A stretch of DNA of 64,000 nucleotides from Alphaproteobacteria bacterium (GTDB taxonomy: Bacteria > Pseudomonadota > Gammaproteobacteria > Burkholderiales > Burkholderiaceae_C). The DNA is taken from the NCBI GenBank assembly GCA_030054175.1, contig JASGCM010000012.1:1-64000 (forward strand), written 5' to 3'. The translations under genes and the position numbers were made by a program. Under the pieces are notes generated by a model. It searched no databases. It saw only the letters and a program-made list of their open reading frames with translations, and was not told the origin of the DNA. The first letter of the stretch is position 1. Every line of letters begins with the position of its first letter. Shown in pieces: positions 23,650 through 37,678 of the stretch.

Positions 23650-25512
23650 ATGAGTACTTTCGACAGCACCAAGCGGTTATTGCCTGAGATCCTTGCAGAA
23701 ATTGTCAAGGCAAAAATTCAGTTACCAGACTTCCAACGCGGGTGGGTATGGGATGACCAGCATATTCGGAGCCTGCTGGTGAGCATCGCCAGGTCGTTCC
23801 CTGTGGGGGCGGTCATGCTGCTGGAGACCGGCGGCGAAGCCAAATTCCAGGTGCGCCCAGTGGAGGGGATTGCGCAACTGCCCGATTCGTCAGACGCGGA
23901 GCTGCTTATTCTCGACGGCCAACAACGCCTAACCACCCTGACGCAAGTCTTGGCCACAAAGGATGCAGTGAAGACTCGCACTGAAAAGGGCAAGCCCATA
24001 CGACGCCACTACTACTGGAACATCGAGGTGGCGTTGGAAGGCGGGGATCACTTGGAAGACGCCATCGAGGCGATCGAAGAGGACAAGATCAAACGCTCCA
24101 ACTTTGGCCGACAGATCGACCTCGATTTGACGACGACTCAGAAGGAGTGCGAGCAGCTGTACTTTCCGTGCGATCAGATTCTTAACTCGGATGCATGGGA
24201 AGAAGCGTTGCAGGAGTACGCGCCCGAAAAATTCGGCCTGTACATGCAGTTCCGTCGGCAGGTATTGAATGCCTACCGCAACTATCAGCTACCCGTTATT
24301 CAGCTGGGTAAGGCCACGACGAAGGAAGCAGTTTGCCTAGTCTTCGAGAAAGTGAACACCGGTGGCGTCCCCCTCAACGTGTTCGAATTGGTCACTGCCA
24401 CCTACGCGGCTGACGGCTTCAACCTGCGCGATGACTGGCATGGCAACGCCGCCAGAAATGTTTCGGGCCGGTATCAGCGCTTGTGCAAAGAGGCACTTCT
24501 GTCGCAGGTGGAGTCCACAGACTTCCTGCAGGCCGTATCCATGTTGCACACGCTGGAGTTGCGCCGCGCCGATGTGGCTTCGGGGAAAACCGGCAAATCC
24601 GTGCAGCCGGTGAGTGCAAAGCGTGTCTCGATACTTGCGATGTCCTTGAGCGCGTATGCCAAATGGGCAGACGAAGTCGAGGCGGGTTTCCTTCTCGCAG
24701 CAAAGTTCCTGCGCAAGGAGTGTGTAAAAACCCCGCGAGAGCTGCCCTATCGAACACAACTGGCTCCGCTCGCATCGGTACTTGCGCACCTGCGCGAGCG
24801 CTGGCTTGAGCCGCGCATTTACCAGAAACTCTCTCACTGGTACTGGAGTGGCGTTCTCGGCGAACTCTACGGCAGCGCCATCGAGACCAGGATCGCGAAC
24901 GATGTCGAGGATCTTCTGCAGTGGATCGACAGTGACGCCGCAATTCCTCGAACGATTACGGATGCGGCGTTTAGCCCCGACCGCCTGGACACCATGACAT
25001 CGCGCCTGTCAGCCGCGTACAAAGGCCTGAATGTGCTGGTACTTCGTGAAGGCGCACAAGACTTCTTCTGGAAGGCAAAGATCCAGGAGCTCGACGACGA
25101 GGAGCTTGCTCTGGATATTCATCACATCTTTCCGCAGGACTGGTGCGAGAAGAACGGCATTAAGCGCGCTGTCTACAACACGGTCGTCAACAAAACCCCG
25201 ATTTCCTACAAGGCAAACCGGATGATCGGCGGGCATGCGCCATCGATCTATTTGTCAAAATTGCAGGCTCATACGCAGGTTCAGCTTGCAGACGCCCAGA
25301 TGAACGCCATTGTCGGGTCGCACCTCATCGATACGACCGCGCTCCGAGCGGACGACTTCGACAGCTTCTACAAGAGCAGAAAGGCCGCCCTGGTCAAACT
25401 GGTCGAACGGGCTATGGGTAAAGCGGCGGCGGTTGTTGCGGACGGAGCTGATCCTGGCGATGCTGAAGAGGATGAGAGCGATCAGCAGCAAGTCATTTCG
25501 CCAGTCGGGTGA
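23650..25512 (+). CDS. GmrSD-type (DUF262-DUF1524) restriction enzyme
   Basis: A 620-residue fusion. The N-terminal DUF262/ParB-like NTPase domain has LPDFQRGWVWDDQHIRSLL, LDGQQRLTTL (residues 88-97) and FEKVNTGGVPLNVFELVTAT. The C-terminal DUF1524 HNH domain has DIHHIFPQD (about 490-498) and NTVVNKTPISYKANRMIG. Fused GmrSD/BrxU-like proteins restrict DNA carrying modified bases such as glucosylated hydroxymethylcytosine. A GAGGAG precedes the ATG and the gap to thsB is 16 bases, so it is likely the last gene of the defence operon. Its 3' end overlaps the convergent prophage gene by 20 bases. Confidence 0.9.
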   Translation: MSTFDSTKRLLPEILAEIVKAKIQLPDFQRGWVWDDQHIRSLLVSIARSFPVGAVMLLETGGEAKFQVRPVEGIAQLPDSSDAELLILDGQQRLTTLTQVLATKDAVKTRTEKGKPIRRHYYWNIEVALEGGDHLEDAIEAIEEDKIKRSNFGRQIDLDLTTTQKECEQLYFPCDQILNSDAWEEALQEYAPEKFGLYMQFRRQVLNAYRNYQLPVIQLGKATTKEAVCLVFEKVNTGGVPLNVFELVTATYAADGFNLRDDWHGNAARNVSGRYQRLCKEALLSQVESTDFLQAVSMLHTLELRRADVASGKTGKSVQPVSAKRVSILAMSLSAYAKWADEVEAGFLLAAKFLRKECVKTPRELPYRTQLAPLASVLAHLRERWLEPRIYQKLSHWYWSGVLGELYGSAIETRIANDVEDLLQWIDSDAAIPRTITDAAFSPDRLDTMTSRLSAAYKGLNVLVLREGAQDFFWKAKIQELDDEELALDIHHIFPQDWCEKNGIKRAVYNTVVNKTPISYKANRMIGGHAPSIYLSKLQAHTQVQLADAQMNAIVGSHLIDTTALRADDFDSFYKSRKAALVKLVERAMGKAAAVVADGADPGDAEEDESDQQQVISPVG

Positions 25513-27148: not shown

Positions 27149-29440
27149 TTACTGATCGGCGGTATGAACCGCCGGGTGCTCGGCCACGCAAGTCAACTCA
27201 ACCTGCTCAGCCCTGGGCTTGACGCTCATGACACGCGCCAGCTGGGACCAGGACTGGCCCACACCAAAAGCAAAGTGCGTTCGCTCTCGGTCAGCACCGA
27301 CCTGCGGCTCATAGCCGGGTAGAGATTTCAGGATGGCGTGGGTGGCTGTTGCGCCCGGCGTGACCTCGATGGCATCGGAGACCGAGCCATCGGGCTTTCG
27401 TAGAACGAGGTAATGAACGGCTCCTGACTGCCAACCCAGCGGCTCAGAGCACCGCACTGTTCTCGACTGGCTGTCCCAGCTCAAGACCTCACCACTCACA
27501 CCCCAACGGGGAATGTCATGGCTCAGGGCAATCAGGTCGCCATAGGTCGGGATCAAACCTTCCAGCTCAGTGCGAAAGGTGACGATCCGTCGGCGATACC
27601 GATTAGCCGCCGCGATGTATTTCCCCTCACGGATACCCTGCGACTTATCGGTACAGCCAAACAGCCTCACGCGAGCGGGCTTAGCAGCCTGGGATCCAGG
27701 TAAGGCCACTGTGAACTCGTCAGGCTTCCAGCTCTTGGGGTTGACGTATTCGATCGTGACCGCATCCGCCGTGGCATCGCCTGGCATCAGGTACTGAATC
27801 TTCAAGCTGTTGCGCACGATGTTTCGCGCAGAAAAAAGTGCCACCGGGACGGTCTTGGGCTCATCGCGAACGACACGAACGACCCCACCTTGCAAGAACG
27901 GGACCGCACGCCCCGTCCGAGCAATCTGTCCCAAGGCATCCCACACCGTCTGGTTCTGATCGAACACGGCATTGAAGGTATCCCCGCGCGCCGACCACAC
28001 AGCATCCAACCGTGCCAAGGCCTCCAAGTCCAACTGCCGGTCAGGCAACCCTGCGCCATAGCTGGACTTGGCCGCATCTGCAAACGCCCACGCAATCGAG
28101 CGAGTGGGCTGCGGTGCAGACCATCCAGTGTCCGGATTCCAGATGGGAAGCATGCGCGTTACCAGACAGTTGACCAACCTTGAGGATCGCTGCGACAGGT
28201 TGTCGGTGGCGCGCATTCTGATCGCCAAATAAGTCAGGTCCGTGGGCAGACTCGATCCCGCCAAATAGCCTTTGGCCTGCCCCCAGCGCAGCTCGTGACC
28301 AACCCGATTGCTGGTGTCTCGTGCATCAAGGCGTTGCAGGCGAATCTCATAACGCCCAGGCGCCACCGAATACTTGAACGACAGGCGTTGCGCAGTGTTG
28401 GTGGCCGCCGAGTAGGTTTCGTCTGCCACATGGAGCCAGCCTGAGGTGGCGTCGCCATCGTCATTGATGCTTCGTACCTCAACCCGCCATTGCACCGAGC
28501 GGCTTTCCAATGCCCCACTGTCGTTGGCGTAATACAGACCGCGCAGCATAACCACATCGACACCGACCTGATTGATCTGTGTACCCACCGGATTAAGGGC
28601 AAAGGGACCAACGATGGCACCGGCGTCGCTGACAGCAATCAATTCCTGACCGGACACCTCTGGGGCCGTGACCACATCGGGGTTGAACAAGGTGTTCTGT
28701 CCGCCAGGCTCAATCACCTGCGCCTGCACCTCGGCAAACGAGCTGATCGGGCTGTCATCAATGGACAGCTCCTCAAACTGAAACTGACCCACGCCAATGA
28801 CGTGCAACTGATGCAGATATTCCTCGTTGTTTTCGTACTCGGTATAGGGCATGGTGGCCAGATCCGGGTACACCAAATGATGGCCATAAATCACGGGGAC
28901 TGGTTGCGACAGACGTCCATAGTTGCCGCGCGCCTGCAATGAGTACGTCGGGCTGGGGGATGTCATGTTGGCCGATGCCGAAGGCAGGGTCTGATTCGGC
29001 AATGGCACCAGCGCATTGACGAGCACCGAGCCCGTGACTGCGATCGCAGTGGAGGCCACCGCAGTGGCCAGCGTGCCTGAATACCCCATCGAGGCAGCCA
29101 GTGCGCCGCCATATGCATTGGCGACGACCAGGACGGCGATCATGAGCACGGTTCTCAGCGGGTTCTTACCACCATCCCCACCGCCTTGCGGCAAGGTGAC
29201 CAGCGCCACGACATCACCCGCATCGATCTGCGTCACTGCCCTGTGTGCCATCAGCACCGGCTGACCATTTTTCAGGATCAAGGTGGGCTGGTCGAACTCA
29301 ATGCCATCACGACTCATCCACTGTGCAATCGTGGGCGAGCCAAACACATGGCTCACCTGCCTATCACTGGGTTCGAATGGATTTCGCATCCAGATGACCA
29401 GTCCAGGACTGGGCAGGCCTGACATGCAAGCGCTTGTCAT
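27149..29440 (-). CDS. tail tip/host-specificity protein (TipJ family)
   Basis: A 763-residue protein corresponding to lambda gpJ. The N-terminus carries a hydrophobic region (LMIAVLVVANAYGGALAASM) of this subfamily; tail-tip beta domains follow (VPVIYGHHLVYPDLAT, QFQFEELSIDDSPI), then fibronectin-like segments (SVQWRVEVRSINDDGD, APGRYEIRLQRLDARDTSN) and the C-terminal receptor-proximal part. It should form the tip that contacts the host receptor. The ATG at 29440 makes a 4-base overlap with the upstream NlpC/P60 gene. Confidence 0.88.
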   Translation of the reverse strand: MTSACMSGLPSPGLVIWMRNPFEPSDRQVSHVFGSPTIAQWMSRDGIEFDQPTLILKNGQPVLMAHRAVTQIDAGDVVALVTLPQGGGDGGKNPLRTVLMIAVLVVANAYGGALAASMGYSGTLATAVASTAIAVTGSVLVNALVPLPNQTLPSASANMTSPSPTYSLQARGNYGRLSQPVPVIYGHHLVYPDLATMPYTEYENNEEYLHQLHVIGVGQFQFEELSIDDSPISSFAEVQAQVIEPGGQNTLFNPDVVTAPEVSGQELIAVSDAGAIVGPFALNPVGTQINQVGVDVVMLRGLYYANDSGALESRSVQWRVEVRSINDDGDATSGWLHVADETYSAATNTAQRLSFKYSVAPGRYEIRLQRLDARDTSNRVGHELRWGQAKGYLAGSSLPTDLTYLAIRMRATDNLSQRSSRLVNCLVTRMLPIWNPDTGWSAPQPTRSIAWAFADAAKSSYGAGLPDRQLDLEALARLDAVWSARGDTFNAVFDQNQTVWDALGQIARTGRAVPFLQGGVVRVVRDEPKTVPVALFSARNIVRNSLKIQYLMPGDATADAVTIEYVNPKSWKPDEFTVALPGSQAAKPARVRLFGCTDKSQGIREGKYIAAANRYRRRIVTFRTELEGLIPTYGDLIALSHDIPRWGVSGEVLSWDSQSRTVRCSEPLGWQSGAVHYLVLRKPDGSVSDAIEVTPGATATHAILKSLPGYEPQVGADRERTHFAFGVGQSWSQLARVMSVKPRAEQVELTCVAEHPAVHTADQ

Positions 29441-29859
29441 GGCAATTCCTTCCATCGGTAATACCCCTCCACCTGCCAGCCGTGACTGGCCAGAGAGCTC
29501 AATTGCTGAAACACCACCCCGATCTGTTGGGCGCAGTGCAACACTCCACCGCCGTCCGCATCAACCCAAACGCCAACATGCACGGGGTGTCGTGACTGAC
29601 GCATCAACACCGCATCGCCCTGCTTGGGCAAATCGACCGCCGCCCAACGCTTTCTTTCCGGGTGGTTTTTGAACGTATGAAGGACCGTTCGCAGATTCAG
29701 CGCGTCCACCGGGATCACCGGCAAGTCACGACCGAAGTGGGTCTTCTGGACCCAAAGAAAAAGGCCCCAGCAGTCAAATGACTCGGGGCCTCTCTCACCT
29801 GCTATCCACGGACGACCGATGTACTGAATCGCCCAACTCGGTGAATCTTCATCTGTCAT
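29437..29859 (-). CDS. NlpC/P60 tail-tip peptidase (gpK-like)
   Basis: A 140-residue NlpC/P60 domain with the catalytic Cys in ESFDCWGLFLW and the His in HPVHVGVWVDADGGGVLHC. Tail-tip members cut peptide cross-links in peptidoglycan during DNA entry. It lacks the JAB domain fused in lambda gpK. Its position between DUF1833 and TipJ is the normal tail-tip order, and it overlaps both neighbours by four bases. Confidence 0.88.
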   Translation of the reverse strand: MTDEDSPSWAIQYIGRPWIAGERGPESFDCWGLFLWVQKTHFGRDLPVIPVDALNLRTVLHTFKNHPERKRWAAVDLPKQGDAVLMRQSRHPVHVGVWVDADGGGVLHCAQQIGVVFQQLSSLASHGWQVEGYYRWKELP

Positions 29860-30398
29860 CGGGCCAATCCTGGAAATTCGGTTGCGGTGTACAGGCGTGA
29901 CGGAAAGGTCTTGTTTCCAATGTCCGCCATGCGTGCCTTGGCAGTGACCCGCTGCACGTCGGCCTCAACTTCGGTGATCACGAGCGTGATCGGTGGATCC
30001 ATCTGCGGACCACTCAGATCGTTGGACAGGTACGGGCGATAGGTCACCTCTATGGGTGACTCCGAAACCGATGCCTCGTCCAAGTGCTTCACGATCTCCC
30101 GGGTGACGTTGTCCAGGGTGATCGCGATTTCAGGAACAGGCGCGATATCCACCGGCGGCAGATCCAGCTCAAAGCCCATGGCCACGAACTGGACCTGCTG
30201 CCCGGCATTGATTGGCGCTGACGCCTCAAGCCTTGCCAGCAAGTCTTGCTGATCTCGCACCACCCGGATCGCCGTCGAGTTACCTGCATCGTCTTTGAAA
30301 TCCGGGTGCCGGATCTCCAGCGTATGCAGGATGACGACATTGCTCGGAGCGCTTGCATAGGCTTCCCGCAGCGCCTCAGAAAGTGCTGCATCAGGCAT
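29856..30398 (-). CDS. DUF1833 tail-tip protein
   Basis: A 180-residue protein of the DUF1833 family, functionally equivalent to the gpL-type tail-tip component. Features are the start ALSEALREAYASAPSNVVIL, then HTLEIRHPDF, VQFVAMGFELDLPPVDIAPV and ITLDNVTREIVKHLDEA. It is a structural virion protein. It overlaps the radical SAM gene by 8 bases, so the unusual modification genes are transcriptionally fused to tail-tip genes. Confidence 0.82.
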   Translation of the reverse strand: MPDAALSEALREAYASAPSNVVILHTLEIRHPDFKDDAGNSTAIRVVRDQQDLLARLEASAPINAGQQVQFVAMGFELDLPPVDIAPVPEIAITLDNVTREIVKHLDEASVSESPIEVTYRPYLSNDLSGPQMDPPITLVITEVEADVQRVTAKARMADIGNKTFPSRLYTATEFPGLAR

Positions 30399-31812
30399 GC
30401 GTCACCCGCACAGGAAATGGTTTGACGGGACGCTCTGGCGGCACAACCGTGCTCATATCGCCATGGCTTTCTACAAATCCGAGATGAATGACATCCATCG
30501 CAGTGACATCTTCACGGCGGATGGCTTCGCCTTCTATGCGTGTGAGGATCAACCCCTGTGTCTGGTAGTAGAGTGCCGCCGCCAACACAGCCAGGTTGTG
30601 GCTGAAGGAGTTGTCGCACGCGGCCTCCCAGTAACCTTCCTCCAGGAACAGGCATGCGCCTTTGCAAAGCTGCACCACGGGACAACGAGGACATTCGCTT
30701 CGCGTGCTGAAGTGGTAGGCCGTATTGAGGCTGATGTCTTCAAACTGATCGACGTGACCGATCTTGTGGTTCGTGGAGGCACTCATGTTCTGGCAAGTCA
30801 TCACGTTGCCTTTCATGTCCACCGCGATCGAATCATCGCGATCCATTCCGCACTTCTGGCCCAATGCAGCCAATGGACGTGACTGCGCTTGGGACCGTAT
30901 GAATTCATCCACTTTGTCCCGCATGGTCCCAACGGCCATTCCTGAGCCCGTGACCAGCTCCCAGAACATCTGGTGCAAATAGCGGGTTTGATCATTCCCA
31001 TAGAGGGCCAAGGACAGTCCGCTCTGATCGTAGGGAAGCATCACCTCCTCAGTCGAAAGCACCACGGCCTGCATCGGAAGATCCAGCTTTTCAGCAAAGT
31101 ACAGGCGCACCGCCTTGAGCGACTGGTTGTGACGATGCAAGACCGTGTTGAAACTCATGCGGTCAATCGACATGCGCCGAGACACCCAGCGTTTGATCTG
31201 AGCCAGACTTTCGGGGTCGTTCAGTGGATCAGGACCACGGTAAGACTGTGCAGGACCGTCATGCGACAGACCGATGCCCACATCAAGGGTCTCGACCCAA
31301 GCGAGCTTTTCGTCATCGAAAAGGGAACCGTTGGTGACGATGGACAACTGCGCGTGCGGATAGCGCGCCTTGACCGCTTCTCCCAGCGGCTTGAGGAGCT
31401 TCCAATACACGAAGGGCTCGCCGCCCCAAAATTCAATCTTGACGCCAGCACCCTTGCCATCGTCGCCACCAGCAAACCAGCCTTCGAGTTGCTGCATGAA
31501 TGGGGCGACGTCGTCCGGGTGTCCATCAATGTCATGGGGCTGGTGCGCCTGAGAGCAATACTGGCAGGCGTAGTTGCACTTGAGCCCCAATTGCAGCTTG
31601 AGGTGCCTGATGGCTTTGGATTTGCCAGCCGGGTTGCTGGGGTGATGCAGATGCCAAAACGGCGGCCACTGCATGTCTTCTTGCTTTGGAAATGCCTGCG
31701 GCAGCGGCAAAGGCTCTTCGTTGTCAGCCCAGACCAAACTGGAATCCTCCGGGTCGTAGAGCGCCTGTCGCACAAAACCATGCTGGCCATTGAGGGTGAG
31801 GGTGAATTTCAT
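30391..31812 (-). CDS. radical SAM/SPASM peptide-modifying enzyme
   Basis: A 473-residue enzyme. The radical SAM cluster motif CNYACQYC is C79, C83, C86, and GGEP is at 130-133. The C-terminal SPASM domain has the complete seven-cysteine layout: C321, G335-x4-C340, then C374-x2-C377-x5-C383-x3-C387 and C399, enough to hold two auxiliary Fe-S clusters. SPASM enzymes modify ribosomal peptides or proteins (thioether or C-C links, epimerisation, formylglycine). The ATG overlaps the stop of the 69-residue gene by four bases. It lies in a tail operon 2.5 kb downstream of an Asn-Cys repeat protein, the obvious candidate substrate. No phage structural role is known to me for such an enzyme. Confidence 0.9.
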   Translation of the reverse strand: MKFTLTLNGQHGFVRQALYDPEDSSLVWADNEEPLPLPQAFPKQEDMQWPPFWHLHHPSNPAGKSKAIRHLKLQLGLKCNYACQYCSQAHQPHDIDGHPDDVAPFMQQLEGWFAGGDDGKGAGVKIEFWGGEPFVYWKLLKPLGEAVKARYPHAQLSIVTNGSLFDDEKLAWVETLDVGIGLSHDGPAQSYRGPDPLNDPESLAQIKRWVSRRMSIDRMSFNTVLHRHNQSLKAVRLYFAEKLDLPMQAVVLSTEEVMLPYDQSGLSLALYGNDQTRYLHQMFWELVTGSGMAVGTMRDKVDEFIRSQAQSRPLAALGQKCGMDRDDSIAVDMKGNVMTCQNMSASTNHKIGHVDQFEDISLNTAYHFSTRSECPRCPVVQLCKGACLFLEEGYWEAACDNSFSHNLAVLAAALYYQTQGLILTRIEGEAIRREDVTAMDVIHLGFVESHGDMSTVVPPERPVKPFPVRVTHA

Positions 31813-32018
31813 GGAATGAGGTCCTCAAACGCGATGGGATAGGCCTCGCGACACACCTTGGCCAAATCGGCACCGGGTAGCGTCTTGAGGTTGAAGATGT
31901 GACGGCCAGAAGCCTTGCCGTCGGGATTGGCGACCAGGACGGTCATCACCAGGTTCGATTCATCGACCTGGACCACTTCGACGGCATAGCCCTGACGGAC
32001 TGAAAGATCGAGACTCAT
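31809..32018 (-). CDS. 69-residue protein coupled to radical SAM gene
   Basis: A small protein with a strand-rich N-terminal part (YAVEVVQVDESNLVMTVLVA) and a helical end (GADLAKVCREAYPIAFEDLI). I know no family for it. A GGAG lies 8-9 bases before the ATG, and the gene overlaps the radical SAM start by four bases, so the two products are made together. It could be a substrate-binding adaptor comparable in role to PqqD-like recognition elements, or a second substrate; both are inferences from position and size only. Confidence 0.6.
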   Translation of the reverse strand: MSLDLSVRQGYAVEVVQVDESNLVMTVLVANPDGKASGRHIFNLKTLPGADLAKVCREAYPIAFEDLIP

Positions 32019-32053
32019 TGAATGGGCTCCATGGGATTGTTTGGGTGCGGGTA

Positions 32054-32755
32054 CTAGATCTGGGCTTTGGCGTGCGCACGGATTTGTTCGGCTGACCAGG
32101 TCTGGTCACCACCACGGTCATCACGGTGCGTGAAGCGCACATTGGTGACGATGGCAACCTTGTCGCTCTGCGGGTCGAACAGAGGAAACGTGGAGTGCTC
32201 CAGATAGCCCGGAAAAATGAACAACGCCCCTTGACGGGGCGTTTGTGCGAAGAGCTTGTTTTCATGTCGGAGCATCCAGTTGGCCTGCACCGGTCTGGGA
32301 TCGTGAAAACACAGTGCCCCGGGCAAGCCAACGGCATCTCGCCCTTCGTTGGCCCCGAGGTGGACTCGGGGGTAATAGGTGGCCACCAACTGATTACCAA
32401 CATGGCGGTGCGGGATGGCCCACTTGCCCAGTCCACGCTGGCGATTCACGAACGTGTTGTAGGTGATGGACAACTCGCAAGGATCGAGCGATGGGTACGC
32501 TTGCCGCACATAGGCGGCCACCCTCAGTTCGATGGCGTCCAGCAAACGCAACAGCGCCTGGCTGGGTTGCTCACGCATCATGGACACGGTGTCGGCTCGA
32601 TGCGCCATCTTGGCTGACGTTTGGGTGTGGCACTCGTAGAAGGTTGCAGCCTCCTGCGCCAGAGTCTCCCGCACGTCATCCAACTCTGAGAGTTGATCGA
32701 TCAGCACATGACTGGGCCAGAGGCTCAGCAGCTGACATGAATTGCTTGGCGTCAT
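32054..32755 (-). CDS. putative Fe(II)/2-oxoglutarate-dependent oxygenase
   Basis: A 233-residue protein resembling the TIGR02466-type 2OG-Fe(II) oxygenases: KWAIPHRHVGNQLVATYYPR gives an H-x-H metal site and the start of the jelly roll, ALCFHDPRP follows, GALFIFPGYLEHSTFPLFDP supplies the distal His, and KVAIVTNVRFTHR the 2OG-binding Arg region. It would hydroxylate a protein or peptide side chain. It overlaps the preceding hydroxylase-like gene by four bases and is followed by the radical SAM pair. Confidence 0.75.
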   Translation of the reverse strand: MTPSNSCQLLSLWPSHVLIDQLSELDDVRETLAQEAATFYECHTQTSAKMAHRADTVSMMREQPSQALLRLLDAIELRVAAYVRQAYPSLDPCELSITYNTFVNRQRGLGKWAIPHRHVGNQLVATYYPRVHLGANEGRDAVGLPGALCFHDPRPVQANWMLRHENKLFAQTPRQGALFIFPGYLEHSTFPLFDPQSDKVAIVTNVRFTHRDDRGGDQTWSAEQIRAHAKAQI

Positions 32756-33546
32756 CGGGTCAAATCTCCATCAAAAATCATCTGAATCGGGTGCTTGCAG
32801 CCGTAAAAGCGGTTCGGTCTATACGTCCTTGTTGGATGGTCGAACTCGATCCATGGCCAGACGCTGAAATGCACGCTGCAACGACTTCCCAACCAAGAAT
32901 GCCGATTGACCAAGGTGTGCTCGTAGCCCGAACAGTTCATCCACAGGCACTCACCCGGGTTGAAGCTCAGGTCATCCTGCCCATCAATCGACAGAACCAC
33001 ACCCGGTGACACAGCTAGGCAAATGTCCAACCTGAGCTCCTCAAAAATCGAGGTATCTCGGTGTGGATGCACCAGAGGAACACCCCGAGGATTGGGCGGG
33101 ACCAACACTGTCAGCCGCCCCGACCCAATGGTCAGGGTGAACTGATCGAGCATCGTCCCGATGGCCAGGTATCGCCCCACCTCCGAGCGATGCGCAAACG
33201 CCAAATGGTCGGCACCGCTGTACCGACATGGGTCCTGGCACAAATAAGGGTCCATCGCCTCAACGGGATGCCCCGTGTGGGCCAACGACAGGTTGCGAAA
33301 CAGGCCCGGACTGGCTGCACTGACTTGGGACTCCCAGATCAGCGAATCGAAACGATCAAATGCAGCGGCGAATGCATGGTCCAGATTGGATGGCACCGTC
33401 ACACCAGGCACGTCCCTGATCGCCACGAGACGCTCAAGTTCCGGATCTGAAACAGCCTTGATGGCTGCCTCAAAATCTGTCTCGCGCCGCAGGTATGTGG
33501 CAACCGTCATGTGGCTTGGGATGTCGTCCGCATGCACCGCCCACAT
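32752..33546 (-). CDS. aspartyl/asparaginyl beta-hydroxylase-like protein
   Basis: A 264-residue protein. The segment VHPHRDTSIFEELRLDICLA contains H-x-D followed by a strand with Arg-Leu; LSIDGQDDLSFNPGECLWMN and GYEHTLVNRHSW supply a distal His and Arg in the order found in Asp/Asn beta-hydroxylases. The substrate class of that family (Asn or Asp side chains) fits the Asn-rich repeat protein encoded 0.8 kb upstream. The start at 33546 forms a TGATG overlap with the previous gene. The family call is by pattern, so moderate. Confidence 0.6.
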   Translation of the reverse strand: MWAVHADDIPSHMTVATYLRRETDFEAAIKAVSDPELERLVAIRDVPGVTVPSNLDHAFAAAFDRFDSLIWESQVSAASPGLFRNLSLAHTGHPVEAMDPYLCQDPCRYSGADHLAFAHRSEVGRYLAIGTMLDQFTLTIGSGRLTVLVPPNPRGVPLVHPHRDTSIFEELRLDICLAVSPGVVLSIDGQDDLSFNPGECLWMNCSGYEHTLVNRHSWLGSRCSVHFSVWPWIEFDHPTRTYRPNRFYGCKHPIQMIFDGDLTR

Positions 33547-34349
33547 CAAACCACCTCCACAGCCGCACCGACCTTGTGGCTGAAATACTTGAAGCCCACC
33601 TTGATCAGTCCCTGATCCTGCGGCTCCAGCCCCAACGCCATCCATTTGAAACTTGCAACACCACCAACGATCGGCACCTTGGTCTTGGGCAGAAAACCGG
33701 CCTCGCACTCCAGGTACAGAACACCACTGCGCGTTTCGATTGCAGGCATGCCTTCAGTTTCATAGACGGGCTGAATGAGCCTGACCGTGCAAGTGATAGT
33801 TTCACCTGCGGCACAGGAATTCGGGACGTCCAACTCCAGCGAGGGCAGCACGGCGTTGTAGAGCGACACACGCGACCGAACTTCGAGAAACTCGGCAAAG
33901 CCTTCGGGTGCCATGGTTTGCGGCGCGTAAACCAGGACTGCCACCTCCTCGATCGGGCTGTCCTCAAAGGGGACGAAGAACAACACCGTGCGTGGATGCA
34001 GGGGACGCCCAAGTAAGAACGGGTTTTTATGCAGATTCGTCTGCGGGAAAACGGAATGCAAATGCCCCAAATCTTCCCAACCAAAGCGGGCCTCCAATGC
34101 CCAGTTGGTATGGATGCCCCAATGCTTTCCTAGGTCAATGTGCTGCCTGATGGCCGCCGGATCAAACACGAAGGGGCGTGAGCCATATTCCTTCTCATTC
34201 GTCTCAGGGTTGGTGCGCCAAGGAGTCACCGTGATCGTCTGAGCTTGCACGTCCCGCTCAACCCGGTAGCTCACAGGAAAGGCCCCAAACGATTCGGCTG
34301 GGGACGGGATGTTGAACAGGCGACCACCAACGGTAGTTGAATTTGTCAT
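33546..34349 (-). CDS. putative virion protein of the modification cassette
   Basis: A 267-residue protein without recognisable catalytic motifs. The first half is aromatic- and His-rich (HWGIHTNWALEARFGWEDLG); the second half is strand-rich and Ig-like (ITCTVRLIQPVYETEGMPAI, GLIKVGFKYFSHKVGAAVEV). It has a GGAG 9 bases before the ATG and sits 11 bases after the Asn-Cys repeat gene. It may be a tail accessory protein, a fibre chaperone or an adaptor for the modifying enzymes; I cannot decide. Confidence 0.6.
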   Translation of the reverse strand: MTNSTTVGGRLFNIPSPAESFGAFPVSYRVERDVQAQTITVTPWRTNPETNEKEYGSRPFVFDPAAIRQHIDLGKHWGIHTNWALEARFGWEDLGHLHSVFPQTNLHKNPFLLGRPLHPRTVLFFVPFEDSPIEEVAVLVYAPQTMAPEGFAEFLEVRSRVSLYNAVLPSLELDVPNSCAAGETITCTVRLIQPVYETEGMPAIETRSGVLYLECEAGFLPKTKVPIVGGVASFKWMALGLEPQDQGLIKVGFKYFSHKVGAAVEVV

Positions 34350-34360
34350 CTCTCAACTCC

Positions 34361-34957
34361 TCAGCAGTCGGTGCTGCAGTTGCAATTGCAGTTGCAATTG
34401 CAATTGGTTCGGCAATTGAAGGCGGTGGAGCCACAGTTGCAGTTGGAGTAGCTGCCGCAGTTACAGTTGCAATTGCAGGCTCGGTACCAGCGGTGGTACT
34501 CCGCGCCACCGATTTCGTCTTGCGCCAAGTAGTAGCCGTCATAGTTCAGACCAACGGAAGGGACGGCGTAGTTGGCATAACTCGTTCCACCGACTCCATC
34601 GTACTGGCCACTGTTGGCGCAATAGTTAAACCCCAGGCCCCATGTCCACCAGTTCACATTGGGGGGAACCCAGTTGGCGTTGCTTGCGCAATTGCCATTG
34701 GGCAGATAGCCATTGCAGTTGCTGGCACGGTCGTCGTAGTACTGGCTCGAGCGCCCCATCTCTCCGATGTCCTGTCCGTCTCCCATCTTGTAGCCCGTGT
34801 TGCGAGCATCGTCACTGGTCACACTGCTTTTGAAGAGTGCTCCGTTGGACATGGTGAGGGTGCCGGTCATGGTCCCACCGGCCTTGTCCAACTTGCCGTT
34901 GATTTCAGTCTGCAAGGCATCATCCAGCCCCGCCTTGGGGATGCGCGTAATCGCCAT
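34361..34957 (-). CDS. tail-fibre-like protein with C-terminal Asn-Cys repeats
   Basis: A 198-residue protein. Residues 1-45 are a phage-fibre leader with the common GGTMTGTLTMSNGALF repeat. The middle (75-158) is rich in Asn, Gly, Tyr and Trp. The last 38 residues (161-198) hold 13 Cys, 11 of them as Asn-Cys dipeptides: C161, 163, 165, 167, 172, 174, 182, 186, 188, 190, 192, 194 and 198. Three more Cys (81, 90, 113) occur upstream, two of them close to NGN/ASN. It is placed directly after the main fibre gene and before two oxygenases and a radical SAM enzyme, making it the likely substrate. A metal-binding or disulfide-locked tip is the simplest alternative. Confidence 0.85.
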   Translation of the reverse strand: MAITRIPKAGLDDALQTEINGKLDKAGGTMTGTLTMSNGALFKSSVTSDDARNTGYKMGDGQDIGEMGRSSQYYDDRASNCNGYLPNGNCASNANWVPPNVNWWTWGLGFNYCANSGQYDGVGGTSYANYAVPSVGLNYDGYYLAQDEIGGAEYHRWYRACNCNCNCGSYSNCNCGSTAFNCRTNCNCNCNCNCSTDC

Positions 34958-34969
34958 GATTTCTCCTAG

Positions 34970-37678
34970 TTAGATGTAACGCACCACAATCCGCGCGCTG
35001 GCGGCTGGTGCTGATGTGAATCGCAAAGTCGCCCCGGAATTGACCAGGACGTAGGCATCGAGTGAGTCCTGCACCACGTAATTGACCGTCACGATCAATT
35101 TGTGGACGCTGGACGCTGCAGTGCTCAGACTGAAGTCCGTCGCCGAACCATTGCCAGTAAAGACCTGTGGGGCGACGTTGGAGCCGCCCGCCGCAGCGGC
35201 ATACCCCTGCGCTTGGCTCATGTAGCTCTGAGCCTGTGTGGCCGATGCTGCTGAAGCCGTCGCAGAATTCGCCGATGCGGTGGCACTGCCAGCCGATGCC
35301 GTTGCCGAATTCGCCGCACTGGTTGCTTGCTGACTGGCCGTCGCTGCATTGGCAGCAATGGACTGTGCGTAGTACTTGGCCGAATACTCGGTCGATCCTG
35401 AAACAGGACCCGACGTCTTGTTCGCCCATTCCTCGGCTGCGGCTGCGCCAGACTGCGCTTCCTTGTCCAGGTAGCGAACGCTGATCACAACGCCACTGGC
35501 AGGGGCCGAACTGAATCTGAGCGTTGTTGTGGCTGGTGTGGTGTAAGCATCCAAGGGCGCTTGAGGCACCCCGGCAACTGTCACCATCAATGCACCGGGA
35601 TACCCGACTGGTCGACTGATTGTGAAATCCGTCTTCACGCCATCACCGGTGAACACATCGGCGGGGATGACCGTATTGGCCGTCACCGCCGCTGCCGATC
35701 CTGCCGCTTGCCCTGCCCAGTATTTGGCTGAGTAACCGCTGCCGTCGACCGTACCGGTGGTCTTTTGTGCCCAATCAGAAGCCAGAGCTGCTTGCGCCTG
35801 TGATGCCGTCAACGACCCTGCTGCGCTTGTGGCACTGCCTGCCGCCGCAGTCGCCGAATTAGCAGCGGAAGTTGCACTCGCCGTTGCATCCCCAGCTTTA
35901 GTCGTTGCCGTTGTGGCTGCCCCAGCTGCCGACGTGGCCGAAGTTGCTGCATTGGTGGCACTCGTGCTGGCGTTGCTGGCCGAGGTTGCTGCCGCTGTGG
36001 CACTGTTGGCTGCGTCCGTCGCTTTGCCACTTGCGGTGGTGGCCGAACCTGCCGCTGCAGTAGCGGAGCTCGCCGCATTCGTGGCTGAGGTTGCCGCTGC
36101 AGCCGCCTGCGTACTGGCGGTACTGGCAGAAGTCGCTGCATTGGTCGCCGACGTTGCGGCATCCGAGGCTTTGGTCGAGGCGGTACTTGCTGAACCAGCC
36201 GCAGCCGTTGCACTGGCCGCCGCATCTGTTGCCTTTTGCGTGGCGGTTGATGCCGAAGCCGAAATCGACTGCGCGTAGTACTTGGCCGAATAGTCACTGC
36301 CACTGACAGTGCCTGTCGTCTTCGTCGCCCAATCCTGCGCAAGACTGGCACTGCCAGATGCGCTACTGGCTGAACTTGCCGCTGCTGTTGCGCTGCTGCT
36401 TGCATCGGTGGCCTTAGCTGTTGCCGTTGTCGCAGAGGCAGATGCACCGCTGGCACTGCTGGCTGCATTGGCCGCCGATGTCGCAGCGTCGCTGGCCTTG
36501 GTACTGGCAGTGGTGGCTGAAATCGCCGCATTGGTGGCCGACGTCCCTGCATCGGCAGCCTTGGTCGTGACCGTGGTTGCAGATCCTGCAGCCGATATCG
36601 CACTGCCAGATGCCGCCGTCGCAGACGAAGACGCCGAAGTGGCACTCGCAGCAGCTGCCTGGGCGTGGTACTTGGCCGAATATTCCGTCGAGCCGGAGAC
36701 CACACCGCCGGTTTTGGTGGCCCACTCCTGTGCAGACGCTGCGCCAGATTGAGCCTCCTTGTCGAGATACCGAACACTGATGCCCACACCTGTTGCCGGT
36801 GCGGACACAAAGCGCAGGGTCGTACTTGCGGGGACCGAGTACGAATCTATCGGTGCTTGAGGAACTCCAGCCACCGTCACCAACACAGCACCCGGATAGG
36901 CCACGGGATGGCTGAGGGTGAAATCCGTCTTGACGCCATCCCCTGCAAACACATCAGCCGGAATCACCGTATTGGTGGTCACCACTGCTGCCGAGTTGGC
37001 TGCCTGACCGGCCCAATACTTCGCCGAATACCCAGTGCCGTCAACGGTTGCAGCGGTTTTTTGCGCCCAGTCAGACGCCAACGAAGCCTGCGACTGAGCC
37101 GACGCCAAAGCGGTCTGTGCATCTGTTGCCTTACTGCTGGCCGTGGAGGCGGAGCTCGCCGCCGAACTGGCACTGGTGGCCGCATCGCTGGCCTTTTGCG
37201 TCGCGGTGGTGGCCGAGGCTGCCGCCGCTGTTGCCGAGCTCGCTGCATTGGTGGCACTGGTGGCCGCATTGGTTGCCGAGGTAGCCGCTGCCGTTTTGCT
37301 GCTGCTGGCATCACTGGCTTTGGTACTGGCAGTGGTTGCCGAGGTCGCCGCAGCCGTCGCAGAACTTGCCGCACTGGTTGCAGAATCACTGGCCGCACTC
37401 GCCTTGGTACTGGCTGTTGTGGCTGATGTCGATGCACTGCTAGCCGATTGCGCAGCATTGCTTGCTTGTTGGGTGGCCGTAGCCACCTGATTGGTCAGAT
37501 CTTGGCGGGACGCATCAAGTTGGGTTTGAACCCCATGTATGACGTTGGCCACGCTCTTGACCTGGCCACCTTGCGTGGTCACGGTCGTCTGATCATCCCC
37601 GTGGACGATCTCATGGAGCAGTTGGGCATCCCCCTCGATCGTTCCCACAGCTTCATCCAGCCGGGTCTTGAGGGTCAT
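34970..37678 (-). CDS. large side-tail-fibre-like protein
   Basis: A 902-residue fibre. Residues 60-200, 340-630 and 775-820 are low-complexity Ala/Ser/Thr heptad-like repeats with periodic Lys/Asp, as in lambda Stf, expected to form long triple coiled coils. Two copies of a globular unit of about 141 residues (200-340 and 631-772) each contain YSAKYWAGQAA, VIPADVF, VTVAGVPQAP and SVRYLDKEAQSGA. A third, shorter version of the beta unit ends the protein (QVFTGNGSATDFSL to RIVVRYI). It probably attaches at the baseplate and carries or precedes the Asn-Cys tip protein. Confidence 0.85.
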   Translation of the reverse strand: MTLKTRLDEAVGTIEGDAQLLHEIVHGDDQTTVTTQGGQVKSVANVIHGVQTQLDASRQDLTNQVATATQQASNAAQSASSASTSATTASTKASAASDSATSAASSATAAATSATTASTKASDASSSKTAAATSATNAATSATNAASSATAAAASATTATQKASDAATSASSAASSASTASSKATDAQTALASAQSQASLASDWAQKTAATVDGTGYSAKYWAGQAANSAAVVTTNTVIPADVFAGDGVKTDFTLSHPVAYPGAVLVTVAGVPQAPIDSYSVPASTTLRFVSAPATGVGISVRYLDKEAQSGAASAQEWATKTGGVVSGSTEYSAKYHAQAAAASATSASSSATAASGSAISAAGSATTVTTKAADAGTSATNAAISATTASTKASDAATSAANAASSASGASASATTATAKATDASSSATAAASSASSASGSASLAQDWATKTTGTVSGSDYSAKYYAQSISASASTATQKATDAAASATAAAGSASTASTKASDAATSATNAATSASTASTQAAAAATSATNAASSATAAAGSATTASGKATDAANSATAAATSASNASTSATNAATSATSAAGAATTATTKAGDATASATSAANSATAAAGSATSAAGSLTASQAQAALASDWAQKTTGTVDGSGYSAKYWAGQAAGSAAAVTANTVIPADVFTGDGVKTDFTISRPVGYPGALMVTVAGVPQAPLDAYTTPATTTLRFSSAPASGVVISVRYLDKEAQSGAAAAEEWANKTSGPVSGSTEYSAKYYAQSIAANAATASQQATSAANSATASAGSATASANSATASAASATQAQSYMSQAQGYAAAAGGSNVAPQVFTGNGSATDFSLSTAASSVHKLIVTVNYVVQDSLDAYVLVNSGATLRFTSAPAASARIVVRYI

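Follow-up and report, generated by a model that had tools for sequence, protein, structure and literature searches.

What a radical-SAM enzyme, together with two oxygenase-like proteins, might do among the tail genes of a phage is the question raised by a prophage tail operon of Limnohabitans, which we analyzed within a 64,000-nucleotide stretch of DNA (hereafter, the window). The open reading frames of the window and their profile matches bear out the gene set and order of the original prediction, with all genes from the large tail fiber to the TipJ-type protein on the minus strand (Table 1). The seven junctions from the fiber to the DUF1833 gene comprise four overlaps of 1 to 8 bases and three gaps of 11 to 35 bases.

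Table 1. Genes of the tail operon in transcriptional order (positions within the window)
Feature	Position	Strand	Profile match
Large tail fiber, 902 aa	34970-37678	-	Tail fiber PHROGs, best phrog_3279, E = 1.5e-26
Fiber-like protein with (Asn-Cys)n C-terminus, 198 aa; putative substrate	34361-34957	-	
267-aa protein; putative helper or fiber component	33546-34349	-	
Asp/Asn-hydroxylase-like 2OG oxygenase, 264 aa	32752-33546	-	
2OG oxygenase-like protein, PF13759 type, 233 aa	32054-32755	-	
69-aa protein	31809-32018	-	
Radical-SAM/SPASM enzyme, 473 aa; putative maturase	30391-31812	-	
DUF1833 minor tail protein (context)	29856-30398	-	PF08875, E = 1.9e-43
NlpC/P60 tail protein (context)	29437-29859	-	PF00877, E = 2.6e-8
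TipJ-type tail tip protein (context)	27149-29455	-	NF040662, E = 4.9e-151, above cut-off

The 198-aa protein carries 13 Cys within its last 40 residues, 11 of them as Asn-Cys (counted by eye), as had been predicted for the C-terminus of a fiber-like protein. Its tail-fiber match is weak (phrog_8443, E = 0.0046), it is encoded between the fiber and the tail-tip genes, and tblastn searches against the phage collection returned no match for it or for one small tail protein. Visual inspection of the phage tail proteins revealed no removable leader. Comparison of its last 60 codons with those of locus L008 revealed 32 silent and 3 replacing changes; judged by its codons, the Asn-Cys tail is under conservation at the protein level. 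We collected 162 tail records, representing 148 loci (some contigs being counted twice) and 127 distinct heads, in which the spacers between Cys residues are Asn in 543 cases, Ala in 76, Asp in 55, and other residues in 15. The heads that carry the tail fall into 14 clusters without a BLAST link between them, one of which still unites 102 of the 127 heads, perhaps via shared fiber repeats.

A CX3CX2C motif combined with a seven-Cys SPASM domain is the criterion for radical-SAM/SPASM enzymes. Both are retained in 57 to 58 of the 58 relatives of the 473-aa protein, which confirms that the SPASM domain is complete, as originally predicted. This protein matches phrog_1802 (E = 1.9e-54), lies above the cut-off of the SPASM domain model TIGR04085, and falls just below that of the Pfam Radical_SAM family (28.9 versus 29.5 bits). 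Its closest curated NCBIfam profiles, among the 25 of 44 matches listed, are the nif11-type, PapB (63.6 versus 340 bits needed), and QhpD (52.3 versus 453) maturases, all far below cut-off. Profiles of cyclophane, sactipeptide, and ranthipeptide makers were matched too, likewise below cut-off in that list, and the RumMC model was far below it (26.7 versus 720 bits needed). Since the SPASM domain model alone reaches its cut-off among these 25 of 44 matches, we rejected assignment to a known maturase family. Structure 5wgg, which we take to be CteB, is among the nearest matches. Viperin was also rejected, the PADLOC match (E = 1.1e-14) being partial and confined to the radical-SAM core.

We then examined the pairing of tail and enzyme by a scan of viral contigs that ignored the head, i.e., for DNA encoding NCNCNC-x-C regardless of the rest of the protein, and scored whether an enzyme of this radical-SAM family lay no more than 5 kb downstream, leaving aside loci with fewer than 2,500 bases downstream. 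Among the matches listed, such an enzyme accompanies 66 of 69 tail loci, and it still accompanies 27 of the 29 left when the set is clustered at 50% identity. Restriction to new contigs, i.e., after removal of ten contigs, picked by eye, that were in the earlier locus set, gave 58 of 61 testable loci among the matches listed, the three without an enzyme being L128, L197, and L218. By the same test, and again among the matches listed, repeats of Asn-Ser (0/30), Ser-Cys (0/9), and Asp-Cys (0/19) are never accompanied by the enzyme, as against 63 of 67 Asn-Cys repeats. With the Ser-Cys and Asp-Cys controls negative among the matches listed, we rejected a generic effect of Cys repeats. Four of 43 Asn-Cys loci were scored as enzyme free, of which two are antisense frames (L086 and L088) and two have the enzyme beyond 5 kb (L083 and L087). 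In cellular genomes, the enzyme is near only 5 of the 13 long frames that end in such a tail and have room downstream (among the matches listed). The pairing is shown to be specific for Asn-Cys among the repeats tried and independent of the head.

The converse search started from the enzyme. It left out the weak relatives L033 to L039, L041, and L042, the fragment L057, and the Campylobacter phage matches, and it recovered an Asn-Cys tail upstream of 26 of the 35 radical-SAM matches having at least 4 kb upstream. The original prediction had named the wide occurrence of the enzymes without a Cys-rich protein nearby as an observation that would speak against it; for the most part, this is not what we found. 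The nine matches without a tail trace to a single cut contig and to four loci on chromosomes. At L488, L083, L137, and L144, an Asn-Cys tail is present, in part at a greater distance, on the opposite side, or at the edge of the contig. As the four chromosomal loci lie outside recognizable tail operons, the enzyme family also acts elsewhere. In the genome from which the window derives, all five genes for the enzyme have an Asn-Cys tail upstream. It is strongly supported that the enzyme and the Asn-Cys tail form a conserved pair across different fiber heads in many phages.

The genes between tail and enzyme vary. The original prediction of a set comprising the radical-SAM enzyme, the hydroxylase, and the Asn-Cys protein stands for the pair and fails for the oxygenases, which are present in only 95 of the 162 tail records and vary or are missing in others; in 10 of the 162, tail and enzyme follow each other with no intervening gene called. 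The commonest partner is the 267-aa family (114/162), which had no role in that prediction and which is the sole intervening gene in 19 of the 162 records. The 69-aa family is found in 34 of 162, some phages have a second radical-SAM enzyme, and one has a desaturase. The 267-aa protein of the window matched no Pfam family; its structural model (pLDDT 87) has an Ig/intimin-like C-terminal part and resembles uncharacterized phage proteins (TM up to 0.76), and the PDB folds that it matched were just Ig/intimin-like ones at low TM. The 69-aa protein recovered no family above cut-off among the Pfam, PHROG, and NCBIfam profiles. Sequence searches of PDB with the 264-aa, 267-aa, and PF13640-type families returned one insignificant match apiece.

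As for the oxygenases, the 264-aa protein displays the hallmarks of a 2OG-Fe(II) enzyme, namely, an HxD...H iron triad and a 2OG-binding Arg (H162-x-D164, H210, and R222, all without variation in the 9 relatives) on an AspH-like, double-stranded beta-helix fold. Five models of it were obtained, with pLDDT from 44.7 to 79.2, and the best PDB fold matches are to Asp/Asn beta-hydroxylase (E = 6.8e-7; probability, 1.00), with a TM of only 0.43. No Pfam match was recovered up to an E value of 1, including PF05118, which we take to be the Asp/Asn beta-hydroxylase family, so that the likeness is one of fold only. A longer, GTG-started version of this frame (318 aa) is offered by the open reading frame listing, and four relatives that share the start M[M]W[AE]VHAD support the shorter version. 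The 233-aa protein matches phrog_81 (E = 1.2e-13) and falls just below the cut-off of PF13759 (E = 1.7e-5; 25.6 versus 27 bits), a domain matched by 22 of the 26 members of its family at E values up to 0.01.

In some phages, including two Achromobacter phages in culture, JWF and 2-1, the Asn-Cys tail is followed by a Hint-like domain, which in some cases begins at, or directly past, the last Cys of the tag. The six proteins scanned matched PF05203 at E values from 0.021 to 3e-12, with L001 alone passing the cut-off. JWF and 2-1 share the pair with the window: the JWF fiber ending NCNCDCNCNCSC is followed by the Hint-like domain and then the enzyme. The tail protein of these phages is annotated only as a Hint-family or hypothetical protein, and the enzyme only as a sulfatase-maturating or radical-SAM protein. 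In contrast to the window, their annotation places no oxygenase gene in the interval from tail to enzyme, and their putative helper belongs to a different family. Since cultured phages carry the pair, the proposed maturation is directly testable. At a chromosomal relative (L490), the family enzyme is adjoined by a protein with a leader-like N terminus, presumably a nif11-like leader, a GG site, and a Hint domain.

Association of tail and enzyme is not by itself proof of a substrate. We infer that the Asn-Cys tail is the substrate of the enzyme, which very probably alters the tip chemically, and consider it probable that the cassette makes and matures a fiber tip in which the enzyme cross-links (Asn-Cys)n into a covalently stapled structure. 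The 198-aa protein would be a fiber or adhesin whose alternating Asn and Cys serve as a modification tag, recognized by the radical-SAM/SPASM enzyme without a removable leader. Cys sulfurs would then be joined to carbons of neighboring Asn (or Asp or Ala) residues in a chain of thioether links, which our analysis suggests as the most likely type of cross-link. The 267-aa protein, as the usual helper, may hold or present the fiber end, while the 2OG oxygenases, where present, might hydroxylate side chains of the linked residues or of others close by, which would add a layer that differs among phages; in some phages, the Hint-like domain would cut itself off behind the tag. The stapled tip, if distal, could benefit the phage through receptor binding or armoring. 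More tentatively, though still as a serious possibility, we propose a general phage strategy in which a transplantable (Asn-Cys)n tag is made into a polycyclic, protease-proof, host-facing needle, with swappable oxygenases and, in some phages, Hint self-cleavage.

The foremost alternative, which we regard as unlikely, is that the enzyme performs other chemistry on the tail, such as epimerization, carbon-carbon linkage, methylation, or Asn oxidation, leaving Cys free or in disulfides. SPASM enzymes indeed catalyze several reactions, as the mixture of below-cut-off profile matches reflects, and Asp/Asn-hydroxylase-like partners are frequent; however, this would not account for a strict Cys at each second residue, and two of the three best curated profiles (among the 25 of 44 matches listed) are those of PapB and QhpD, both thioether makers. 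Somewhat less likely still is a metal-binding tip, in which the CxCxC strands of a trimeric fiber line up to coordinate iron or zinc or to carry an Fe-S cluster, much as in the HxH iron needle of the T4 long tail fiber, and the enzyme tunes only a few residues or acts otherwise. The protein is tail-fiber-like, and Cys at every second residue would leave all Cys pointing to the same side of a strand. Yet a metal site alone would need neither a radical-SAM enzyme alongside, as seen in 58 of 61 loci (among the matches listed), nor Asn as the main spacer, and no enzyme accompanies the Asp-Cys or Ser-Cys repeats among those matches. We consider it very improbable that the locus is a phage-borne RiPP pathway in which the excised tail acts as a small bioactive peptide: the L490 arrangement and the shortness of some tail proteins (only 95 to 162 aa) are compatible with this, but the genes sit among tail genes, no protease, export, or immunity gene was seen between tail and enzyme among the named gene clusters of the phage loci, and a cut by a Hint domain placed after the tail would leave the tail on the fiber. 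Chance, i.e., hexamer repeats happening to lie near a radical-SAM gene, is practically negligible, for although (NC)n-encoding hexamer microsatellites are common in cellular genomes and pure hexamers make up 28 of 38 enzyme-free frames there (both among the matches listed), they make up 1 of the 162 enzyme-linked tails, the other 161 have mixed codons, the changes are mostly silent, and the repeat controls are negative.

To our knowledge, no structural protein of a virus has been described as matured by a radical-SAM enzyme; the stapled tip, if real, would be the first such case. It would also provide a concrete substrate for orphan phage radical-SAM genes (phrog_1802) and for some orphan phage 2OG-oxygenase genes, and, as a general strategy, it would mean that phages face their hosts with chemistry beyond the twenty amino acids. 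It further suggests a leaderless tag, accepted on many proteins by one enzyme family, that may be useful in protein chemistry.

Among known systems, the iron needle of T4 gp37 has metal-binding His (HxH) as alternate residues of the fiber tip. The tail described here is alike in this spacing and differs in using Cys rather than His; we know of no dedicated enzyme for the T4 needle. In the open-access literature searched, we found no description of enzyme-modified Asn-Cys phage tail tips. The ranthipeptides (NxxcA/NxxcB, freyrasin PapA/PapB, and SCIFF CteA/CteB) are comparable in that a Cys-rich ribosomal substrate is encoded beside a radical-SAM/SPASM enzyme, and PapB- and CteB-type profiles are among the nearest matches of the window enzyme, none at a curated cut-off. 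NxxcB is reported to link Cys with the Asn beta-carbon (PMC13361665 and PMC8326336), Asn being the acceptor that we also favor here, while the thioether maker PapB is reported not to accept Asn in place of Asp (PMC8172795). The sactipeptide ruminococcin C, made by RumMC, likewise has closely spaced Cys, which are reported to be linked to the alpha-carbons of Asn and Ala (PMC8172795). Unlike in ranthipeptides and ruminococcin C, the putative phage substrate is the C terminus of a tail protein, and neither a leader nor export nor release of a peptide was observed. QhpD, reported to be a radical-SAM maker of Cys-Asp/Glu thioethers in a non-RiPP protein, resembles the phage enzyme in acting on a whole protein, with a profile match far below cut-off, and differs in that its target is an enzyme subunit rather than a virion protein.

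On the minus strand, the large fiber is followed by the 198-aa fiber-like protein with its Asn-Cys C-terminus (hereafter, the Asn-Cys tail) and then, in order, by a 267-aa protein, the 264-aa Asp/Asn-hydroxylase-like protein, the 233-aa second 2OG-oxygenase-like protein, a 69-aa protein, the 473-aa radical-SAM/SPASM enzyme, DUF1833, NlpC/P60, and TipJ. Every gene of the original prediction is present on that strand in its predicted place. Four of the seven block junctions are overlaps, and at the other three the genes are 11 to 35 bases apart. An Asn-Cys tail gene lies upstream of every one of the five radical-SAM genes of this family in the window's genome. Past the phage tail genes lies a 620-aa protein that, in its N-terminal part, matches the PADLOC candidate defense model PDC-M55C (E = 8.6e-30).

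Coordinates of the features discussed, in the window and in the loci fetched for comparison (L)
Feature	Sequence	Coordinates	Strand	Remark
Large fiber	window	34970-37678	minus	first of block
198-aa fiber-like protein	window	34361-34957	minus	13 Cys in last 40 residues, 11 as Asn-Cys
Radical-SAM/SPASM enzyme	window	30391-31812	minus	
620-aa protein	window	23650-25512	opposite to tail genes	
Fatty-acid-desaturase-like protein	L091	13270-13995		
Solo family gene, genome G124	L492	14968-16332		
Solo family gene, genome G553	L489	3256-4659		
Family gene and 313-aa protein, genome G623	L490	3478-5780		
Distant radical-SAM gene, Campylobacter phages (e.g., WX1)	L003	6016-7119		
Small ..HTHxFxDDYST.. 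protein	L132	11426-11671		

Relatives of the enzyme were gathered from viral contigs, phages, and genomes, and relatives of the tail protein were gathered independently. Among these, the block recurs as a tail protein, usually a member of the 267-aa family, zero to six more genes, often the 69-aa protein, and the radical-SAM gene. Of the 43 tail-protein loci in which 4 kb or more follows the tail, 39 have the enzyme within 5 kb downstream; the other four are two antisense frames and two loci with the enzyme farther along. The block stands ahead of DUF1833/TipJ in some phages and behind TipJ in others and thus behaves like a cassette. An identical kind of C-terminus is found on tail proteins with different heads (the part before the Asn-Cys tail): among the matches listed, the heads of enzyme-linked tails form 14 clusters without a BLAST link at an E value of 1e-4, the largest holding 102 of 127 distinct heads.

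We also scanned the viral collection blind to the head, with DNA encoding NCNCNC-x-C as the sole condition (at least 120 stretches). Loci were counted if they had an in-frame ORF, at least 45 residues ahead of the tail, and at least 2,500 bases downstream; the enzyme, detected with a profile built from loci gathered prior to the scan, was sought on the same strand within 5 kb. Among the matches listed, it lies downstream at 66 of 69 loci, at 58 of 61 once ten contigs already in the relatives' set were removed, and, with the tails clustered at 90, 70, and 50% identity, in 48 of 51, 40 of 43, and 27 of 29 clusters. Of the 12 loci listed with fewer than 45 residues ahead of the repeat, 1 had it. 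Under the same rule, control repeats had it downstream at none of the testable loci (0/30 for Asn-Ser and 0/9 for Ser-Cys among the matches listed; 0/19 for Asp-Cys), and the Asn-Cys repeat, run alongside in one script, had it at 63 of 67 (among the matches listed); the input was 117 of 120 Asn-Cys and 114 of 120 Ser-Cys stretches. At one Ser-Cys and one Asp-Cys locus, a family enzyme is present but does not follow the repeat. The pairing of tail and enzyme is far above chance.

Over its last 60 codons, the window's tail and that of L008 show 32 silent differences and 3 replacing ones, and other comparisons give a similar pattern (silent/replacing: L007, 12/0; L009, 29/3; L010, 32/3; L059, 12/0). 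Among the spacers between the cysteines, N is the most frequent (543), ahead of A (76), D (55), Y (7), T (6), and S (2). Pure hexamer repeats account for only 1 of the 162 records of enzyme-linked tails, versus 28 of 38 enzyme-free (NC)n frames of cellular genomes (among the matches listed). A five-Cys pattern scan of genome contigs found in-frame repeats in at least 108 loci, mostly short frames; among the matches listed, the enzyme is downstream in seven cellular loci (L284, L318, L321, L330, L347, L351, and L354) and in 5 of 13 long frames that end in the tail with room downstream. Hexanucleotide repeats reading (Asn-Cys)n occur without the enzyme in L253, L274, L327, L344, and other loci of cellular genomes (e.g., Noviherbaspirillum and Granulicella). 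Separately, a recurrent viral protein of ~233 aa (L607, L612, L620, L631, and others) contains a run of Asp-Cys within its sequence (..PECEC..DCDCDCDC..); the tested loci have no family enzyme downstream.

In the alignment of enzyme relatives, CX3CX2C and the seven SPASM cysteines are conserved in 57 to 58 of 58 rows. The window's enzyme scores above the cutoff of the SPASM domain model; none of the maturase models (best 25 of 44) reaches its cutoff, the top ones being nif11-type, PapB, and QhpD. No Pfam family matches the 264-aa protein, and its own family has H162, D164, H210, and R222 invariant in 9 of 9 rows, the residues with which 2OG oxygenases bind iron and 2OG; its structural model (mean pLDDT, 79; five models span 44.7 to 79.2) has an aspartyl/asparaginyl beta-hydroxylase as its top PDB match (E = 6.8e-7; TM, 0.43). 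The 233-aa protein is PF13759-like, itself under the cutoff with 22 of 26 relatives matching, and a third oxygenase family in the relatives' loci is PF13640 (8/8 matched).

The genes between tail and enzyme vary. The 267-aa family is present in 114 of the 162 records and is alone in 19, an alternative family occurs in 16, the 69-aa family in 34, and no gene is called in 10. Any of the three oxygenase clusters occurs in only 95, so the original prediction, in which the radical-SAM enzyme and two oxygenases modify the tail as a set, is right in outline and wrong in fixing the set. A second, shorter radical-SAM protein is present in 13 records (PF04055 above the cutoff in the one scanned); it has 335 to 340 aa and precedes the main enzyme in L023, L086, L090, L093, and L096. 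The desaturase-like protein (PF00487; E = 1.8e-13) appears once. The 267-aa model is confident (pLDDT, 87); its PDB matches are Ig/intimin-like with low TM, and it matches functionally uncharacterized phage proteins well; we infer a fiber or presenting protein.

Eleven loci with the enzyme downstream have an extension of more than 40 residues past the tail, in 10 of which it presumably is a Hint domain. All six extensions scanned match PF05203 (E = 0.021 to 3e-12, one above the cutoff), beginning at the tail's last Cys or within about six residues beyond. Achromobacter phages JWF and 2-1, both cultured, have the Hint form. The eleventh locus, L108, has a different extension (..ICTxLxxxGxM..), not Hint-like by eye, as do L085 and L137.

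In reverse, with weak relatives left out, an Asn-Cys tail lies no more than 6 kb upstream of 26 of the 35 radical-SAM hits for which 4 kb of upstream sequence is available. The nine others are a truncated cassette (L020), two entries for the same G124 locus (L051 and L492), one each at G553 and G623, and four at G581. By reading of neighborhoods, the bacterial loci among them have no tail operon; hence, the family is also used otherwise. At E values up to 1e-30, 398 genomes sampled phylum-wide yield 1 with the family, and 399 from the order yield 7 (counting the window's own). The G124 and G553 genes are solo chromosomal ones without an Asn-Cys tail, the former in surroundings that we read as flagellar. 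The G623 gene adjoins a 313-aa protein that we read as a nif11-like leader, a GG site, and a Hint-like domain, with apparent export genes as neighbors; this ties the family to peptide maturation, and the set may be a bacterial RiPP system related to that of the phages. Campylobacter phages have a distant radical-SAM gene (15 records; the alignments cover a quarter of the query at ~28% identity). Small proteins ending ..HTHxFxDDYST.CNCNCNCNC.. (L132, L188, L138, and L230) have several divergent radical-SAM genes downstream; the one tried had no match in the phage collection.

Because the tail is what the varied heads have in common, it is, judged from sequence, the likely substrate of the enzyme. 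The C-termini of fibers are usually distal, and the modified product would therefore be a stapled fiber tip. We know of no precedent for such maturation at phage tail tips. With Cys alternating with Asn, Ala, or Asp and with makers of Cys thioethers among the nearest profiles, thioether links are our first choice: the enzyme would join the tail's Cys in such links. Cys is linked to the Asn beta-carbon by the enzyme NxxcB (PMC13361665 and PMC8326336) and, in ruminococcin C, to the alpha-carbons of Asn and Ala (PMC8172795). Against Asn thioethers, PapB did not accept Asn for Asp (PMC8172795); it does accept Cys-Xn-Asp with n of 0 to 6 (PMC9413430). Searches of an open-access library, which excludes preprints and most subscription papers, yielded no recognizable description of radical-SAM modification of a phage tail protein; PMC7159879 and PMC12114271 name radical-SAM and tail genes in unconnected contexts. 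We place the system with the radical-SAM-matured Cys-rich polypeptides, with phage tail tips as its setting.
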